Below the pieces are notes generated by a model that worked only from the letters and a program-made list of their open reading frames with translations, searched no databases and was not told where the DNA came from. From Odiellus spinosus (lineage: Eukaryota; Arthropoda; Arachnida; Opiliones; Phalangiidae), in NCBI GenBank assembly GCA_963920705.1, contig OY987237.1, positions 8,214,601 through 8,278,600 of the forward strand: a stretch of DNA of 64,000 nt, given 5' to 3'. Below, one piece after another: positions 24,601 through 61,205 of the stretch. Numbering within the stretch: the first letter of the stretch is position 1; every line of letters starts with the position of its first letter. Both the position numbers and the translations under genes were made by a program.

Positions 24601-27600
24601 AGAGAAATGTTAGGAAGATTACGCTCGCCGTGTTCTATGATATAAATCCGGGTAGAAAGCTCCCAGGATTTAAACGACTACGCGACAAAGAATAATGAAT
24701 CTAGATCTTGCATATATGGCTGAATACTGTCAAAGGTACACGAAAAGAATGCTGACTTTTCAGTATCAACCTTACCAACATCTTGTGAACATTTCTTCAT
24801 TTATAGATACGCTGGACAGTGATTATTGTTATTTCTATGGTAACTTGAGTATTTTTAACTAAGTTTAACGCGGAGTCTAATGGAAAACGCTGTAAGAGTT
24901 ACGCCGCAACTTAAAAGATTAGAGCCTTGCGCCAAAAATCATAATTTGCATCCCCATTCAGTACACCTTTGGAGAAAAATATCCAGATAATTATTCCTAG
25001 TTGGCGTTATTTCTATCTCTATACAATCTAACCGTTTATCTTATTTCCCCCGAACATGACTTCATTCCGTCTTTCTTCTTGTTTGAGGCGAGAAAAACAA
25101 ATTACATTTTGTTTGGAAGGGGGACTGCTTACATTCACGCCGCCCTTGGCGCACAAGTTCTTTTTAAGGGTGGTTAGAATAAGGGTCAAATTTGAAGCGA
25201 ATTGATACACAATGATAAACCATTTATACGAAAAAAGTAGTACATCGCTAACTCGTTCGGTTGAGATATAGCGCCTTCGAGGATAAACTTGTTAGTAGAA
25301 AGTTCTCTCAAGAGAGAAAAGGCCATCGAAGTTACGTTGAGGTTCTAAGCAGGGAACAAACGGTGACCGGCCACAGTTCTGTATCGGTGGAACATATCTT
25401 CTTATCCATTCCGAGTGCGTGCGTCCAAACTAAAGCGCAAAAAGAGAAGTCGCATCTTTTTCCTATTTCGCGCCTTTTCTCTCTCCCTTTCTAGCTCCTT
25501 CGTGGCATCCTCGACTCCTCGTTTTGATAACACACCGAAAAAGATCTAGACAAAACAACAGAATTCCTCTTGACCCTAAACTTCAACCTCCTGACTTACA
25601 ATGGTTCCGTGGCTTATGTCAAATCATTGAAATCAAACCAGGCGTGAATGCGAATTGCGTAACTTTTATTATTTTTTTTTTTTTTTAACTGTTTCTACTG
25701 AGAGAAGTAATATCCACCACCACCAATGATTATATTTAACCGATATAGTACATTTTTCTCCACTCTTATCCTATATAGAATGTAATTTTAAATTAAAATT
25801 GTAGTATTGGTTTAGATTTAAGGAAAGAGTTCTCGTATGCTATTAGTTCGTGAATCGTGTAAAAGACCTTGATTTAAAAGCACAAAGCTTCTGTTTGGGT
25901 TTGCAAGTTCTACTCGTGACATCGTAGCATTGCCGTAAACTTATCAAGATTGATTTTTAATGAAAGTAAGGAATGATTTTCCTCTTCCTCCTCGCTTCCC
26001 TTTGTGTTTTCGTACCAATTCCAATTTGAAGCAGATAGTGCTACTATCCCTTTAAGGAGAATAAAGTTGTTTCGAATCGATTCGTTTTCATTTAACATAA
26101 AATTAGACTGGAATGTTATTTAAAATAATTGATATACTTATTGTTGGTGAAAGCTTAAAATATTTATTTATGGTGTATGAAGGCCCTATTAAATATCGCT
26201 ACCATCCCCCTTATCGAATAGATGAGGATAACGGGATTACATGACAGTATGTGTTTCTCTCCTATATATAAAAAGAAATTCAAACTTTCGAGTTTTGACT
26301 AACAATTCAATTAGACAACATTGTACTACAACCCATCAATAAAACTGACATATTCAACTCGCATTGCTGCAACCTATAGTAAGAAAATACCCTACTTCAA
26401 TTTATTTCCATTTCTAAAACCAAGTTAAGACTGATCTATTTTGCGTACAAAGAAAGACCCGTCGTTCTTGACTGGAATAAAATACACGAAGGCTGGGTGC
26501 GATATAAGAATCTATTGACGCTCTTTTCGTTTCAGCCTTTAGTGGAAGATGTCGTCTGTCTTTAAGAGGGAGTTTTCAACTTCCCCTTTAGACTTATCGG
26601 CCTGATATCTTATATACTACGGTGGTTGTATACTAGCTATAGGAAAGGGCCTGTACCCTCTTGAACCGGGACACAATGCAAAAACTTTAAGAAAAGAAGG
26701 AAATAATATCGCGAATTGGCTTGTACTATCGCGACTTCCAGGCAAGGAGAGGGCAGAAGAGCGGAAAGGAAGAGCTAGGCGAAAACGGGGATTCCGGCTT
26801 CCAGAACCGGCCAATCACTCGTATACTTGGCTTTTTTACACTCGCCTAAGCGAAAGGGATAGAGAAAAAGTAGCGAAACACGAAACAAACACACAGTCGC
26901 TACCCTACAACCAACCAGAACTGTTCTGGAGTAACTTCGTGTAGTCTATAACTTAGGTACGAAAATATATGGGAATGTTTTCTTCCCCATTGTGGCACTA
27001 TAGGAGTAAAACTCTGATCTTAACAATCTCCAACATTTAACTCATCCATTTTATCAATTTTAATTTGAACACCAAAACAGGCATCGTGTCTTTGGTCATC
27101 CTGTGATGGACTAAACCTTTTGATGAACTAAGCACATAAAAAACTACATAAATTTCCCTTGGCCCTAGCTAAGATTTTGGGGTTTACGACGATGTGTTGA
27201 CTCATTCACTACGGATTTTCAATAACAACACCTAATTCTAATGTAGTTAGAATTGCGGGTTTGACCTCGGGAAACTGATACGTTTTAGAACTGACAGACT
27301 GGTGTACCATTTTTGTGGTAAGGCATAAACTAGATTGCTGTTTCTGTTTTCCTAAAGTAAGATAAAAAGAGCGAAGGACCCAGGCAACTTTTCTCGTCCC
27401 CGTTTTCGTATTGACGCCAAAGTCCCCCTCCAATAGATGGTAGTTCTGATAGCACTATTGAAGGGTGGTGGCCAGATAGTGTGGTAGAAAAAGCGGGAGG
27501 CATGGGGGAATCATCGTTTTGGTTTCACTTTCTTTTCATGCTAAGCCTTGCTGCCTTGGCCTTCCTTTGATACAACCCTTTTTTCTTTCAAAGAACGGGG

Positions 27601-28807: not shown

Positions 28808-29979
28808 CTAAGCCTCGGTCGCCGTGATGATGTGACTAATCCACTGAGCGTGCGTGGAGATTTTAGTGAAGACGTGAGAAACGTTATTCTGGCCACAGAT
28901 TGATGACGTCGTGAAACCAAGAACTGACCACTTGGAATCCATCTCGCAAAATAGAATTGAAGGGTTATCCTCCTAGTTTAAAAAGTAGATGAATATCAAA
29001 GGTCAAAGAAGGGTTAGAAGGCGCATTCGATAAAAGATTGAGCTCAATTTATGTCTCAAGATAAGCCTAATTTATGCCTCAAAATAAACATAATTTTTCC
29101 TCGAGGTTTAATTTAAGTTAAAATCAATGTTTTATCTAATTTTGTAACAATATTATATTAGATTATGATAATCAGTACCAAATCGTTTTTGGTGCTTCAA
29201 GTATAAACCTATCATTTTCCTTAATTTGGTCCATTTGACCAATCCTGGCACGAACGAAGTACAATAGTTTAAAACTCGGAGTTCCACAGACCAAAAAGAT
29301 CTTACCTTGCAAGAATAATTAGCCAAGATTCCTGTTGGTTTGGCGCATATTCCACCATAATTATTGTAATCATTGATACAATCTGTGGATGACTTGATCC
29401 TCATTTGAATTTGTAGCAAAGATTGCGCTAAGAAAGATATTTAATTAATCTGAATGTTAATTTTAAAAATTAAATAAAAATTACATTTACTATCCCACGC
29501 CATGGCGTAACAAATACTTCCTTCTAAGACGGACTTCTCGGTCGGTAAGCAAACGTGGCGGACGTAATCCGAAGTGTTGACCGGGTGGTCGAGTTTCAAT
29601 AATGCGAGATTACTTCGGACATCGGGAGATTGAAATATCCTGGAGACGATTCTGGTCTGGTCAAATGGTGACGCGGATGACTGACGAACTTTACCCAATC
29701 CAACTGTCCAGTTGGTTTGAGTACCGCTGAAGTATATTAAACGAACGTTGTACGCAAATAACTGGAATTAATTAAGAATATATTTAACTTACGTTTGTAA
29801 ACAATCGCTATGAACCAGTAACCAATGTTCATTGAGAAGAACGGCGTCGCATCTCAAATGTCCGTCAGTTATTAATGATGCCATCCATGGCCAATCACCG
29901 TGAACCGCTTGTTGGACGGAATCGGGTCGCGATCTTATGCTATGAGTTGATTGGGTACTGGCTGGTCTTTTACCGCATT
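28808..29979 (-). CDS. corin: Corin-like protease-fold domain, catalytically dead (29979-29793, 29726-29491, 29427-29306, 28972-28808)
   Basis: Fold landmarks are clear: [88 protein letters not shown] and WISHII. The block that is normally AAHC is HSDC, the block normally NDIALL is SNLALL, and the block normally CQGDSGGPLVC is [11 protein letters not shown] at exactly the same length. The S1 residue 189 is Tyr718 instead of Asp. There is no R-IVGG activation site; the sequence there is [11 protein letters not shown]. The linker cysteine (ECG) and its partner (HVCLPT) remain, so the domain should stay disulphide-bound to the stem. The intron between the first two of these exons is 66 bp, with its acceptor at CTTCAG|CGGTAC. 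Confidence 0.93.
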
Positions 29980-32900
29980 CTGTAATAATTAGGATGATTA
30001 AATGGATTAATATAAGGAGGGGCAGTCACTCCAAGGCAATAGCTTCAACTATAAAAAACTGATCAAGTAACTGAGTATGTAAATCTTGCTAATAATTTTC
30101 CCTTCAAATCACGATGAAATCTATCTGAAAACTACGAAATCTCTCTAAAATATCGCGAAATAAGACCTTGAATATCGATTTGATCCTTCAAATTGGTTTG
30201 AAAAAGGTTCCAAAGTGTGAAGTGTGAACGTAGCTTTAGATAAATGTCCGAACAGTCGTAAAGTGGTCTATTGTCTTAAATGTAAACTTTTAATTACCTA
30301 AACCGTTGCACTTGACGAAAATGGGCGATTTGGACTCGCAGTCGGATTCCTCGAAAGTGACGGGCGAGGTCAAAGGTTCGATCATCTTGGTATAAGTGGT
30401 GTTAGTGGAATTGTCAACTCTGGTTTCCACCAGTTCAGCCGTACGGTATTGTAGGTCACTACAAGCCGTCGTTGCCAAGTGTCTCATCATAACTTCGCGG
30501 CGGGCCAAAGACATGGAATTGTTACGATTTTCTAAACACACTTTCGATTGGTTGGAAGCGCCCGAACTAACGGAAACCACGAAACCCTCTTTCTGGTAGA
30601 AACGGAAGCGAGTTTCGTCGCGTTCCGCTCCATCGGTGGTCGAATTACTCGACATTAAGTACACTAAAAGAATTATTGAAATAATGTTCGAACTGACAAG
30701 ATCAATAATAAGAAGTGTAATTGAGCTTACAACATCCACGTTCATCCGCTCCATTCGTGCAATCCCTCGTTTGGTCACATCTCTTGGACAAAGAAACGCA
30801 CTGTCGACTTCCGCAATAGAAATCGCTCGGTTTACAGAAGGCTGAATGGTGTAATTAAGATTATTACTCGAATTTTTGATTAAAATCTAATATAATTAAC
30901 GTACCACAGTTCATTTCGTCACTGAAATCGGGGCAATCAACCACCCCGTCACAAATGAGTCGAGTTTTTCCTCTCGTTTTTAATTCTTCCGCACAATCTA
31001 TAAATATACAACAAGGAATAATAAAGATTATCTTTTTCTATAAAACTAAACTCATTTCGATAAAACTAATGCAACATGTTACAGGGAATAATAAAGATTA
31101 TCCTTTTCTATAAATCTAAACTAATTTCGATAAAACTAAACTCATTTCAAAAAATAAACTTATTTCAACATAGTTAAATCTTTTTAGCACACATAAAACT
31201 AATTACCTGGCTTAGGTGTGCAAATGTCTTCGTCTTTGGACACGGGCAATTTTGAACAATTAATCTTATCTTGAACCTCCTTGGGTAACAAATTGGCACA
31301 AGCATTTTGAAAGTCTATAACGAAACGAAAGAAAATTTAACATTTTTTTTTATTTATTTTTTTTTCGTTCATTGTTGACCGAAGATGAAACTAACCGTTG
31401 CAGAAATCGCGACAAGGCGGAACCATTTTGTCATCGACGCAATTGGACTGCAACAAACTACAGATAAACTCCTGCGCCAGAGCGTAGCACTCGAAATCAA
31501 TAACTTGACGGTACGAGATGACCTCTTTATTGACCTCTTCGACATTCCTATGACCCACCACGTTGGGATATGACGTAGAATTGTAGCTTAAATTCTGACA
31601 AAAATCTAGCGTGACGGGGACGCAACGTCTGGGTCCGTCGTTGGGGCTCTTCGTCGTCAAACCAACCAGGGAACCGGGATACTGGCGTCGGGGAGACCAT
31701 GGGTCGTGAATCGCGTCGGACGCTGATTTTCTTTCTGATAATTGAGAATGAACTTTAAAATAATTCATAAATTGAAAAATTATTTAAGATACAATACCTT
31801 GGATATTTAACGCTTGATGATCAATCTTAAGTTTACCGAAAACACCGGCGTGATTTCTCATGACCTCTTCGGACAAAACGAAGTAAAGGTCACCAGTATC
31901 GACATCTTTCCTCTCAGGACGCATGTGTAAATTGAAATGAACAACCAATTTCTTGTTGTTTTCGCTGTTAAAGACAATTAAATTCCATGAAAATTTAAAT
32001 GTAAAGCAGAGGAGATCAGAAATTTGAGCGAAACATGAAACAATATCTACAAGAAATTTTCTAGATCAACGATCTTCAACAATTTCGACATTATTAATTA
32101 TTGAAACGTGGTCTTTGGAATAAAATCAAATTATTTTATAGCCCCACATTTAGCTTAAAAAAATCTCCGAGACACGTGCTGCGGCACACACTTTGAATCG
32201 GCCACAATCGTGCGTACAACAGCGCTTGTCTGGAATATTTTATGAAGCCAAAGTTGAGGAGTCTTTTGATTAGTCGGAGGTTTTTCAAAATCCGAATCTT
32301 TTCCGATTTTTGCATAGATATTTCCTTCCGAACAAGCCTTATTTTTAATATAGTAGAATCAATGAAAAAATCTCTTGATTTTCCTCTTCACCCTACCTTT
32401 TAAGTTAGCTTGACGTTGTTACACACAAAATCCCTATAGTCTTACATAATCAAATAAAATGGAGTCATAAGATGTCGCCTATATGGTAAACAAATATTAA
32501 ATTTCTCACGATATTAGTCCTCATTTTAAATAAACGAAACGAACTTCCTCGTAAAGAAATTAGAATTTAATTCAAAATGTTGTATAACCTTGCTTTGGGC
32601 AAAATTTAACGTATCAAAAAACCGGTTCCCTATGCAAATGTGTACGCTAAACAAGAGCGTATTTTACTGGAGCGATTTTAATGCCATAAACATAATTATA
32701 TATTCATAAAGGAAGATATTAAAAAAAAAATCACAATATAAAAATCACACCGGCCTAATTATACCAAGAGCACAGTTTTCTATATAAAGTAGAACGTACT
32801 TGTCAAAGGTTACGACCTCCGAATGATGATAAGCATCTTTAACAACGCTACTATTGTATAGAGTATCCAACTAGAATGAAAAAAATACAAGTTTTACAAT

Positions 32901-34693
32901 TCATTCATAATATTATCGAATCTAATAAATCACGGTACGAATGTGGGTTGCGGGTTCCGCTTGGTCGAATAATTTTTCAAGTCACCCTGTCACCGATTAC
33001 AAACGTTTTAAAATAGAAACTGGTATTTTAACTTAATCGGAAAATAGGCTTATCACGGATACGTAGATAACCAAGGTATTTCCGGTCTGAAGTGACGATT
33101 GGCGGGAGAATGGTTATCAGCAAGATTTCACACTATCCATGGTTCCCTGTTAAGCCTACTTTTCGAATAAGATGAAATTGATACGAGTGGGTACACTTGT
33201 AATATCTAACGAGTTCTAAAGGTTACTTGCCTTCCAAATTATAAGTTACACGTAACTATTGTTTATCACGGAGGGTAGAGAAATATCGTTCTGAACGTTA
33301 AACCGCGGTTCGAAATGTCTCGAAATATTGTTGTTTTTTTAAATAAAGTAATTTATTTAACCTTTCTCTTTCCGTTAAAACTTTGGATAATTATTTCTTT
33401 GTGTATAATATTTTCAATATATTTTTAGTATAAAAACGCTATTCGTACCCACATATATAAATGGGGACAGAAGCACTTTAAATATATAGAAAAAGAAGAA
33501 TCAGTCATTACCTTGGAACGATAAAACTCGGCTTTAGACTCGAATTCGTTGGAATTGGAATCTAGAAGATCTTCCGTAAATTTGTCACCTTCTACTATCA
33601 CTAATTTTCCTTTGAAAACTCGATCTGCACGGTAGAAAACAATGGATATACGTTATAAACGAGGAAACTTTATAATTTATCGATTGTGGGAACGTGATAG
33701 GATTTTAAATACCGGTAGCAAAAAAAAATTAAACTTGGAATTTACCTGTTAAAGGTTTCTCAGCGAGGAATTGAACTAAAAGAAATAAATATATAAAATA
33801 ATATATGTATTATCGTTATAACGTATCGAAAAACATTTTGTAATGATGGGATTGTACCGTTTTTTTGTACCTAATTATTTTTTCTAGGTTATGGGAAAAA
33901 CGGGAGATTACATGAAATCTATGGAATCTCCAGCATCCACCCTTTTTCTGTGTTAATTCAAATAAGAAAATAACATGGTTTGCCGACTCCCTACTTAACC
34001 TTTACTGATGGTATTATGCTACCGGAAGTTGTTTACTTTTATGGAATAAAAGTTTACTAAATTTTAAAATTTTAGAGAAATCAAAAATTGGGCCAATCAG
34101 AAGCAACCAGCCTTTAACAGCGCTAGCAGGATCTTTTTTTTTTTTCATATGGGGGCGAGCTAAGAGGTTTTAAAGACCCATATCCTAAATTGTAATTTCA
34201 TTGCTTTTTATATAAATTGTTTTTGAAGAGTGTTAAATTCCATGTAAGAAAGTGCATAATTTCGGGTCAGATAAAAGTAATCATGTTATTAATTTTTCAC
34301 TATCTATAAATTTAAAACGAGATAACTCCCAAATTAACTAAATTATGTCATTCCATACTATTTGAAATCAAAACTCAAATAACAATTAAATTCAAGTAAC
34401 GAAAGTATAAGATACGAAGCAGTATGCTATTTTTAATATAGTTGCTATAGATAATTATAAACATTAATAATAATTGTAATAATTAATAAAAAAAACTAAA
34501 ACCTAGTTTATCTTGAAAAAGTAATTGGGGGCAAATATTTCGTAAAAAAAATATAAAATTTATCAACAAGTCGTTTAAAAAACAGTAAAAAAAAAACCCG
34601 ACGCGTACGGAATTTTTTTTTTAAACTGTCATTGTAAAAAATAACCCGTAGCCCCAATTAAAATGTAAGAAAAATAGCAATTGTTCATGTTTT

Positions 34694-34732
<39 letters not shown>

Positions 34733-35799
34733 CTAAAACCCGAATTATGTATCATTCTGCCCTCGTAATTATATATACGCAAAGCGGTTTTCAAAGGGAG
34801 GCTGAACAATTAAAGATAACGCTCAATAGTTGCATTAGATCTTAAAGGGAGAATGCAAACTAACAAAAAGTGATTTTTTTTTTTTTTTAAATAGCTCTAA
34901 TCCATCAGAAAAATGAAATCACAAACAAATATCAAACTAGAAATAAATTAAAAACTTACCCGGAAAATAGGCTTAGCTGGATTCATGGTGATCCTGAATT
35001 TCTTCGCATTGACGGTTATTGGAAATCTCGTGGAGATCTCGCCTTAATGACGGGTTTTTGCTGATTGGTCGCTGACCCATCAATGCGAAGAAATTCAGGA
35101 TATCCATGAATCCAGCTAAGTCCTTTTTCCGGGTTTAGTTTAAAATTGATTTCAAGTTTTGTTTGTTTTAATTTGTTTACTAGTGGAGTAGGCCTAATAA
35201 AACGATAAGGAATCGATGAACAATCACTTTGAGTTAGGTTGCATTCTCCCTTTAAAAGAAATAATTTAAAAAACTGCGAAATAAATATATTTTTGTAAAC
35301 AAAAGCTTTCAACCAATCAGGTGCCAAATCGTATTATATAAAACAATGGGACCAAGCAGATAGGCGCCAACTAAATAATCAAAATCTCATTTACATTCGA
35401 ACTCTGCTAAGCCTATTTAATAATAAAGTATAAACAATTCCAACTCGAATAAATAAACAAATAATTAAAAGTACGCTAACATAAATGGCTTTTTAACCTC
35501 TCTCGAGCAGATTAATGTAATTTAAAGTCGAGTTAAATTTATTTTTCATCTTCCCTTTAGTTTAAATGTAATTTCTTACGTCCGAAATAAATGCCGGCGG
35601 CTGCGCCGAGGGCAACGAAACTGATAGCTAGAAAGACGCAGGCGCAAGTGCACGGGGTACATCCTTCTTTTTGAGTAAACTTGATTTCGTGACTCTCGCC
35701 ACTCTCACTAGAGGCGCCGCTATTCACGTCAGAGCCGCACAATCCTTTCTTCTTGCCGTTGACTGTAAGAGGTCGCTGTTGAGGAGAAACTCGGCCACG
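28808..35799 (-). CDS. corin: Corin-like type II transmembrane serine protease homologue (pseudoprotease), 14 exons, 5' end missing
   Basis: Exons (minus strand): 35799-35580, 33775-33746, 33624-33512, 32870-32800, 31964-31798, 31734-31396, 31314-31207, 30997-30905, 30841-30731, 30663-30298, 29979-29793, 29726-29491, 29427-29306, 28972-28808. Every junction is AG/GT and the phases agree, giving 775 residues and a TAG stop. Order: transmembrane (~50-72), SEA (~84-200), frizzled CRD with 10 cysteines (238-345), LDLa (351-380), LDLa (383-417), SRCR (418-541), protease fold (560-775). In mammals corin is the cell-surface convertase of pro-ANP and has more Fz and LDLa modules. Here the catalytic residues are all replaced (Asp598, Asn641, Asn724 at the His57, Asp102 and Ser195 positions), so proteolysis is not expected; a binding or scaffold role is my inference. 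The first coding exon, upstream of 35,799, was not found. Confidence 0.92.
30298..30663 (-). CDS. corin: Corin-like SRCR module exon
   Basis: The 122-residue exon has a long N-linked glycosylation-rich sequence (NST, NNS, NST, NTT sequons). The scavenger-receptor motifs visible are [22 protein letters not shown] and [16 protein letters not shown] followed by ECG on the next exon. The domain is less cysteine-rich than canonical SRCR, as is usual in corin and its relatives directly before the protease fold. Confidence 0.85.
30731..30841 (-). CDS. corin: Corin-like LDL-receptor class A module 2, complete
   Basis: [15 protein letters not shown] and then [18 protein letters not shown] give all six cysteines and the acidic calcium ligands. 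Introns of 63 and 67 bp flank it, both phase 1, the classic arrangement of a shuffled extracellular module. Confidence 0.92.
30905..30997 (-). CDS. corin: Corin-like LDL-receptor class A module 1, with four cysteines
   Basis: The calcium-binding end is intact ([16 protein letters not shown]). The N-terminal half ([15 protein letters not shown]) has one cysteine where two or three are expected, so only four of six cysteines remain and one disulphide is lost. The exon is symmetric, phase 1-1. Confidence 0.88.
31207..31734 (-). CDS. corin: Corin-like frizzled cysteine-rich domain (31734-31396, 31314-31207)
   Basis: The ten cysteines are all present: RRC, DFC, FEC, FIC, SNC, PPC, DFC, NAC, INC and DIC. 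The conserved phrase YPNVVGH and the CRDFC...NACANLLP linker mark a complete Fz fold. An 81-bp intron splits it at the DFCN-G junction, phase 1. About 37 residues ([18 protein letters not shown] and on) join it to the SEA domain. In mammalian corin the Fz domains help recognise the substrate. Confidence 0.92.
31798..33624 (-). CDS. corin: Corin-like SEA domain, three exons (33624-33512, 32870-32800, 31964-31798)
   Basis: The strand [13 protein letters not shown] is followed by the helix-forming [19 protein letters not shown], then [20 protein letters not shown], and [14 protein letters not shown] with a closing segment [17 protein letters not shown]. This is the usual SEA order. The loop that in self-cleaving SEA domains reads G-S-V/I-V-V is NKKLVV here, so autoproteolysis is not expected. 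Two introns of 641 and 835 bp divide the domain; the second holds a dispersed repeat at 32,195-32,410. Confidence 0.85.
32195..32410 (+). repeat. Dispersed repeat, copy 3, inside a corin intron
   Basis: ACAATCGTGCGTACAACAGC, GGAATATTTTATGAAGCCAA and GTCTTTTGATTAGTCGGAGG match copy 1 almost base for base; the tail ends CTTCACCCTACCTTTTAAG. It sits in the 835-bp intron within the SEA-coding part. Confidence 0.65.
33746..33775 (-). CDS. corin: Corin-like 30-bp microexon after the membrane span
   Basis: Only 30 nt between TTTCTTTTAG and GTAAATT, coding [10 protein letters not shown] across both junctions. Its length is a multiple of three and both flanking phases are 1, so it could be skipped without changing frame. 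It links the membrane segment to the SEA domain. Confidence 0.75.
34698..34731. repeat. Poly(A) tract, about 34 bp
   Basis: Uninterrupted A run in the large first visible corin intron. It could be the tail of a retroposed sequence, but no element body was recognised beside it. Confidence 0.8.
34842..35255. mobile_element. GGGAGAATG-family MITE, copy B, in corin intron
   Basis: Both termini are intact: TTAAAGGGAGAATGCAA at 34,842 and TTGCATTCTCCCTTTAA ending at 35,255, a 17-bp perfect inverted pair. The subterminal arms (ATAGGCTTAGCTGGATTCAT and its inverse ATGAATCCAGCTAAG) and the core (TGGTCGCTGACCCATCAATG) are shared with copy A. It lies 325 bp downstream of the transmembrane exon in transcript order. 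No coding sequence. Confidence 0.9.
35580..35799 (-). CDS. corin: Corin-like exon: cytoplasmic tail and transmembrane segment
   Basis: The exon opens after TTTTTCTAG and has no in-frame ATG, so at least one coding exon precedes it. Residues 1-49 are polar with a basic patch (NGKKKG) and a serine- and glutamate-rich stretch. A cysteine cluster (CTPCTCAC) enters a hydrophobic segment ([18 protein letters not shown]). The short N-terminal tail before a single membrane span fits type II topology; the cysteines at the inner face could be palmitoylated. It ends in GGAC|GTAAGA, phase 1. Confidence 0.88.
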
Positions 35800-57047: not shown

Positions 57048-57955
57048 AAAGTTTTACAATAATTTTTAAAATAAAATTTTAATAATTTTAAAATAAAATT
57101 TTAATAATTTTAAAATAAAATTTTAATAATTTTAAAATAAAATTTTAATAATTTTAAAATAAAATTTTAATAATTTTAAAATAAAATTTTAATAATTTTA
57201 AAATAAAATTTTAATAATTTTAAAATAAAATTTTAATAATTTTTAAATAAAATTTTAATAATTTTTAAATAAAATTTTAATAATTTTTAAATAAAATTTT
57301 AATAATTTTTAAATAAAATTTTAATAATTTTTAAATAAAATTTTAATAATTTTTAAATAAAATTTTAATAATTTTTAAATAAAATTTTAATAATTTTAAA
57401 ATAAAATTTTGATAATTTTAAAATAAAATTTTGATAATTTTAAAATAAAATTTTAATAATTTTAAAATAAAATTTTGATAATTTTAAAATAAAATTTTGA
57501 GAATTTTAAAATTTTGATAATTTAAAAATTTTGATAATTTAAAAATTTTGATAATTTTAAAATAAAATTTTGATAATTTTAAAATAAAATTTTAATAATT
57601 TTAAAATAAAATTTTAATAATTTTAAAATAAAATTTTAATAATTTTAAAATAAAATTTTAATAATTTTAAAATAAAATTTTAATAATTTTAAAATAAAAT
57701 TTTAATAATTTTAAAATAAAATTTTAATAATTTTAAAATAAAATTTTAATAATTTTAAAATAAAATTTTAATAATTTTAAAATAAAATTTTAATAATTTT
57801 AAAATAAAATTTTAATAATTTTAAAATAAAATTTTAATAATTTTAAAATAAAATTTTAATAATTTTAAAATAAAATTTTAATAATTTTAAAATAAAATTT
57901 TAATAATTTTAAAATAAAATTTTAATAATTTTAAAATAAAATTTTAATAATTTTT
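57048..57955. repeat. Tandem array, 21-bp unit, ~43 copies, in a putative first intron
   Basis: The unit AATAATTTTAAAATAAAATT plus T repeats almost perfectly. A block of the variant AATAATTTTTAAATAAAATT occupies 57,238-57,385, a block with GATAATTTT lies at 57,405-57,590, and truncated units lie at 57,500-57,545. The array ends at the polypyrimidine-like TTTTTTTAATCTTTTACAG, so it fills almost the whole presumed intron. About 90% AT. Confidence 0.95.
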
Positions 57956-60319: not shown

Positions 60320-61205
60320 TTGAATTTGCAACAATCTTGTTGTGGAGTTTTCAACACAATCTTGTTGTGTAGTTTTCAACACAATCTTGTTGTGGAGTTT
60401 TCAACACAATCTTGTTGTGGAGTTTTCAGCACAATCTTGTTGTGGAGTTTTCAACACAATCTTGTTGTGGAGTTTTCAACACAATCTTGTTGGAGTTTTC
60501 AACACAATCTTGTTGGAGTTTTCAACACAATCTTGTTGGAGTTTTCAACACAATCTTGTTGGAGTTTTCAACACAATCTTGTTGGAGTTTTCAACACAAT
60601 CTTGTTGGAGTTTTCAACACAATCTTGTTGGAGTTTTCAACACAATCTTGTTGGAGTTTTCAACACAATCTTGTTGGAGTTTTCAACACAATCTTGTTGG
60701 AGTTTTCAACACAATCTTGTTGGAATCTTCAACACAATCTTGTTGGAATCTTCAACACAATCTTGTTGGAATCTTCAACACAATCTTGTTGGAATCTTCA
60801 ACACAACCTTGTTGGAATCTTCAACACAACCTTGTTGGAATCTTCATCACAACCTTGTTGGAATCTTCATCACAACCTTGTTGGAATCTTCATCACAACC
60901 TTGTTGGAATCTTCATCACAACCTTGTTGGAATCTTCATCACAACCTTGTTGGAATCTTCATCACAACCTTGTTGGAATCTTCATCACAACCTTGTTGGA
61001 ATCTTCATCACAACCTTGTTGGAATCTTCAACACAACCTTGTTGGAATCTTCAACACAACCTTGTTGGAATCTTCAACACAACCTTGTTGGAATCTTCAA
61101 CACAACCTTGTTGGAATCTTCAACACAACCTTGTTGGAATCTTCAACACAATCTTGTTGGAATCTTCAACACAATCTTGTTGGAATCTTCAACACAATCT
61201 TAGTA
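60320..61205 (+). repeat. Tandem array of 25-bp then 23-bp units, ~38 copies, open in three frames
   Basis: Units of 25 bp (GAGTTTTCAACACAATCTTG plus TTGTG) fill 60,333-60,488. 23-bp units (lacking TG) follow to 61,205. The unit has no stop in any forward frame, so open frames of 263-314 codons appear in all three; each would give the same 23-residue repeat (69 nt). The unit contains the imperfect palindrome CAACACAATCTTGTTG. Variant blocks are nested symmetrically (see findings). I regard it as non-coding minisatellite. Confidence 0.93.

Follow-up and report, generated by a model that had tools for sequence, protein, structure and literature searches.

In the 64-kb window (the whole stretch of DNA analysed, positions 1 to 64,000), we detected a minus-strand gene, predicted from the genomic DNA, which spans 35799 to 28808 and whose 14 exons, spliced at AG/GT borders, give a single open frame. 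An acceptor AG precedes all 14 exons, and a donor GT follows each of the 13 exons that need one. The spliced coding part measures 2,328 nt, i.e., 775 codons plus a stop with no internal stops, and its GC content at codon position 3 is 0.487 versus 0.294 in the introns. The rebuilt gene bears out the stop-free, cleanly spliced minus-strand gene of 775 residues described in an earlier note, whose range (28808 to 29979) comprises the four protease exons only, the coding part found here extending to 35799. Its start codon must be situated upstream of position 35799. The exons are as follows:

35580..35799, minus strand, exon A: codons 1-74, encoding the cytoplasmic tail and, at residues ~50-73, the type II transmembrane helix, from borders and hydropathy
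33746..33775, minus strand, exon B: 30 nt, juxtamembrane, from borders
33512..33624, minus strand, exon C: SEA domain, part 1, from Pfam and borders
32800..32870, minus strand, exon D: SEA domain, part 2, from Pfam and borders
31798..31964, minus strand, exon E: SEA domain, part 3, from Pfam and borders
31396..31734, minus strand, exon F: Frizzled cysteine-rich domain, part 1, from Pfam, PDB and borders
31207..31314, minus strand, exon G: Frizzled domain, part 2, with 10 Cys across exons F and G, from Pfam and PDB
30905..30997, minus strand, exon H: first LDLa repeat with 4 Cys (usual 6), from Pfam, Cys counted by eye
30731..30841, minus strand, exon I: second LDLa repeat (residues 383-417) with 6 Cys, from Pfam, Cys counted by eye
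30298..30663, minus strand, exon J: 122 codons in the place held by the scavenger receptor domain in corin, no SRCR match, from Pfam and PDB searches and borders
29793..29979, minus strand, exon K: start of the S1 domain, R/IVGG absent, His57 block HSDC (Asp598), from borders
29491..29726, minus strand, exon L: Asp102 block SNLALL (Asn641), from borders
29306..29427, minus strand, exon M: ends at Cys191-Lys192, Tyr718 at position 189, from borders
28808..28972, minus strand, exon N: Ser195 block EDNPSILFC (Glu193, Asn724) through the stop codon, from borders

Elsewhere in the window, positions 60331-61201 are an array in which a 23-base unit is repeated in tandem about 37 times (97% matches), and the long open frames in all three plus frames of this array are probably not a gene. 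Another array, at 57058-57954, has a consensus unit of A and T only, with a 44-base period and about 20 copies (95% matches). Across positions 1-64000, no tRNA was found by ARAGORN and no Rfam family at gathering score.

Pfam searches with the encoded protein recovered Fz (1.8e-21, residues 238-339), Trypsin (5.1e-21, residues 562-766), LDLa (3.3e-11, two stretches) and SEA (3.5e-11, residues 87-192), and the best 19-residue hydropathy (2.36) starts from residue 52. Together, these features describe a type II membrane protein with the order TM-SEA-Fz-2LDLa-(unrecognised region)-S1. The Frizzled domain keeps all 10 cysteines and matched Frizzled-7 in the PDB at 8.3e-17, with Frizzled-7 and Frizzled-4 structures at about 1e-16. 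Given these cysteines and matches, the domain should fold and might bind a ligand. Exon J gave no SRCR match in Pfam (E up to 10) and no match in the PDB (E up to 1), and the only PDB chain retrieved with the SEA stretch, MITSUBA-1 (E 0.37), was judged a chance match. The first LDLa repeat, in exon H, keeps acidic residues near its end ([12 protein letters not shown]) despite having 4 Cys. The protein carries 13 N-glycosylation sequons in total; the sequon NYS at residues 717-719 (exon M) falls on positions 188-190, where the base of an S1 pocket would be.

The genome (443 Mb, 286 contigs) also holds corin-type exons outside the window. A search with the S1 domain gave 11 matches, of which 4 are exons of the window gene and 7 lie elsewhere, including contig 11 (G000:C11) at 6891218-6891466. 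The Fz model likewise gave 11 matches, including the window gene and G000:C11 at 6874808-6875047. On the contig of the window gene, about 108 kb from it, G000:C15:8358702-8361069 carries two open frames with a Frizzled domain (581 and 204 codons). In the 40 kb examined on contig 11, corin-type exons occur on the plus strand at about 6.874-6.893 Mb in the order Fz, two LDLa, SRCR_2 and four protease exons. The exon matching SRCR_2 did so at 1.2e-6 (29.5 bits versus a cut-off of 27), and the protease exons read RIVGG, AAHC, DLAL and GDSGGP. From their order and strand, we take these exons as one putatively intact corin gene, hereafter own corin. These separate, intact corin-type exons argue strongly against the window gene being this genome's corin. 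The protease exons of the window gene and of own corin agree in borders and phases (1, 2, 1, 0) in four of four cases, and 71 of 227 aligned residues are the same in the two S1 domains, which argues that the genes are paralogs and that the reading frame of the window gene is right. The window SEA sequence gave a best E of 0.49 in BLAST against the plus-strand frames of the 40-kb corin region. A whole-genome search with the Pfam SEA model gave no match, missing also the three-exon SEA of the window gene and 14 controls, and is thus uninformative on other SEA genes.

The S1 domain of the window protein carries Asp598 at triad position 57, Asn641 at 102 and Asn724 at 195, with Tyr718 at position 189; all four residues and their numbering, as given previously, proved exact on rebuilding the gene. 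The Ser block [11 protein letters not shown], described as having no length change, does equal the length of CQGDSGGPLLC in own corin, while outside this block the window protein is six residues shorter just before position 102 in an automatic alignment with own corin. The oxyanion position 193 is Glu in the window protein and Gly in own corin, and, by eye, the activation site [RK]/[IV][IV]GG is absent from the stretch between ECGKRP and WPW, the place of R/IVGG in own corin. This is a dead S1 protease, a domain that cannot act as a serine protease by any known rule. All 10 cysteines of the S1 domain of own corin are present, 9 of them in register in the automatic alignment and Cys182 paired by eye. 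These cysteines, the strong Trypsin profile match and a third-position GC content above that of the introns fit a kept fold rather than a decaying gene, so that the S1 fold looks kept and the gene looks retained.

A gene in decay, drifting toward a pseudogene, would account for the first LDLa repeat being down to 4 Cys and for exon J no longer matching SRCR. Such a course is improbable considering that the 775 codons are stop-free with intact splice borders, that the protease and Frizzled cysteines are all kept, and that similar proteins are entered in the survey tables for bee, fly and moth. Retention of a catalytically dead protein is thus the reading that we follow, and it agrees with one part of the earlier note's proposal, in which a corin-type receptor had become a pseudoenzyme in this lineage, with the domain kept for binding or structure. 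The loss of catalysis stood, and the gene looks retained (an open 14-exon frame, with 10 of 10 cysteines in both the protease and the Frizzled domain). The supposed change of a corin-type receptor in this lineage did not, given the intact corin-type exons on contig 11 and the separate membrane homolog beside corin in the insect survey tables. Under that proposal, the window gene would be the corin ortholog and corin activity would have been lost here, as could be suggested by its Fz, LDLa and S1 domains, which follow one another as in corin, and by the four of four protease exon borders in common with own corin. However, contig 11 has corin-type exons with the full triad, R/IVGG and a recognisable SRCR, and their RIVGG, AAHC, DLAL and GDSGGP motifs argue against reading the window gene as a corin whose activity was lost in this lineage. 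The window gene also has a SEA domain, while the corin region reached only the above E of 0.49 in its plus-strand frames, and the corin ortholog of the bee, SP30, is without SEA in its entry (PMC1761132). We therefore consider a lineage-specific loss of corin to be very improbable, and the window gene to be a retained paralog of corin.

A six-frame scan of the window for GDSG, [GC]DSG[GS] and [AS][AGS]HC, which a motif split by an intron would escape, gave no match to these unsplit motifs on the minus strand and two matches on the plus strand, at 26787 and 39434, neither of which falls within a detected exon. No alternative exon restoring the active site was thus found on the minus strand, and a misjoining of exons, with other splicing yielding an active protease, is hardly credible given this absence and the exon borders and phases equal to those of own corin in four of four cases.

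The order TM-SEA-Fz-2LDLa-S1 and the replaced catalytic residues both match the SPH56/CG1632 type in the survey tables of insect serine proteases. In the honey bee, SPH56, the homolog of CG1632 (~777 aa), is entered as LC-TM-SEA-LC-FRI-2LDLA-SPH with the blocks TTASC/TTVL/EFAGSP (PMC1761132). The corin ortholog SP30 is separate from it and has TASHC, DVAL and R/IVGG, with no SEA in its entry (PMC1761132). According to these entries, SPH56 shares with the window protein the transmembrane segment, SEA, Frizzled, two LDLa repeats and a pseudoprotease, a similar length (~777 versus 775 residues) and the replacement of all three triad blocks, and in both proteins position 193 is Glu and position 197 is Ser. 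They differ in the replacing residues, which are S/T/A in the bee and D/N/N in the window protein. The Ostrinia survey, whose homolog class requires at least one replaced triad residue, lists in its row 'SEA' the fly SPH198 as TM-SEA-Fz-2LDLA-PLD and the moth OfuSPH21 as TM-Fz-2LDLA-PLD, with 'Corin' as a separate row (PMC10036332). The layout of fly SPH198 in that table equals that of the window protein, and because the layout agrees, we infer that SPH198 is CG1632; OfuSPH21 is unlike the window protein in that SEA is not in its entry. In Tenebrio, Corin SerP285 has H, D and S, and a membrane homolog, SerPH570, is labelled SEA and known by class and name (PMC11172050); compared by this label and homolog class only, SerPH570 is probably like the window protein. 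Full loss of the triad was read for the bee protein only, those of fly, moth and beetle carrying the homolog class label in the tables. The Plutella survey describes its homologs as a protease domain alone, save three clip-domain ones, and gives none with a Frizzled domain in the parts available (PMC4676143), and the corresponding parts of the Nilaparvata survey name a frizzled domain with the protein not specified (PMC4085338). A pattern scan of bacterial and archaeal genome contigs matched 19 stretches, none of them a relative.

Based on layout, length and motif tables rather than a tree, the window gene is likely an ortholog of the SEA-type membrane homolog (bee SPH56/Drosophila CG1632), i.e., a corin paralog with a long-dead protease. 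Since the surveys for bee, fly, moth and beetle each list, apart from corin, a membrane homolog, the simplest view is that catalysis was lost long ago and that this loss is shared and not special to this lineage, with separate losses possible. The window gene thus most likely adds a member to an already published insect pseudoprotease family, and a supposed lineage-specific death of an enzyme becomes an older, shared pseudoprotease family with little visible functional work.

The fly literature gives scattered data on this family. CG1632 RNA occurs across the whole eye disc (PMC11792340), CG1632 appears as entry 34 (value 2.89) of a list for sensory organ precursor cells (PMC2824816), and in one eye assay in flies its knockdown had no significant effect (PMC4521751). 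A GFP-tagged line of CG1632 is named in PMC4379497. A Wnt receptor screen that singled out DFz2 and DFz4 included RNAi of fly Corin (PMC12463391). The passages covered of the literature naming CG1632 held no functional assignment for it. A full-text search found 7 papers with this name, one of which apparently concerns a bacterial gene so called, and it was absent from their titles and abstracts.

A protein-binding role has been proposed for other insect serine protease homologs. The window protein is most likely a membrane binding protein, which would be exposed at the cell surface and serve there as a receptor for binding or as a scaffold. Its Frizzled domain would be the likely ligand site, for a Wnt-type lipid or another ligand, and the pseudoprotease S1 domain would serve as a protein-binding module. 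A fuller scenario, in which a corin paralog became early in insects a membrane pseudoprotease with an intact Frizzled domain but without catalysis, oxyanion hole and zymogen activation, as a dedicated co-receptor or decoy for Wnt-type or lipid ligands, its S1 domain being bound to proteases, inhibitors or other partners, is put forward as speculative and, taken as a whole, rather unlikely. As its genome combines an intact corin with a dead paralog that bears a Frizzled domain, this species would offer a clean setting for asking what membrane pseudoproteases do.

Among known systems, the S1 domain was matched best in PDB sequence searches by the vertebrate type II transmembrane proteases TMPRSS6 (2.1e-19) and enteropeptidase (3.1e-18), which are active enzymes and are not known to carry a Frizzled domain. 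Tenebrio SerPH364 and Apis SPH54 resemble the window protein in being membrane-bound, LDLa-bearing homologs, and SerPH364 has a SEA domain as the window protein does, with S, D and E as its triad; unlike the window protein, both have EGF and SRCR, and not Frizzled, in their entries. The insect corins (Drosophila Corin, Apis SP30, Tenebrio SerP285 and own corin) share with the window gene the order Fz, LDLa, S1, while, as far as their entries go, they keep the triad and R/IVGG and a recognisable SRCR and are listed without SEA. Own corin also shares its protease exon borders and phases with the window gene.
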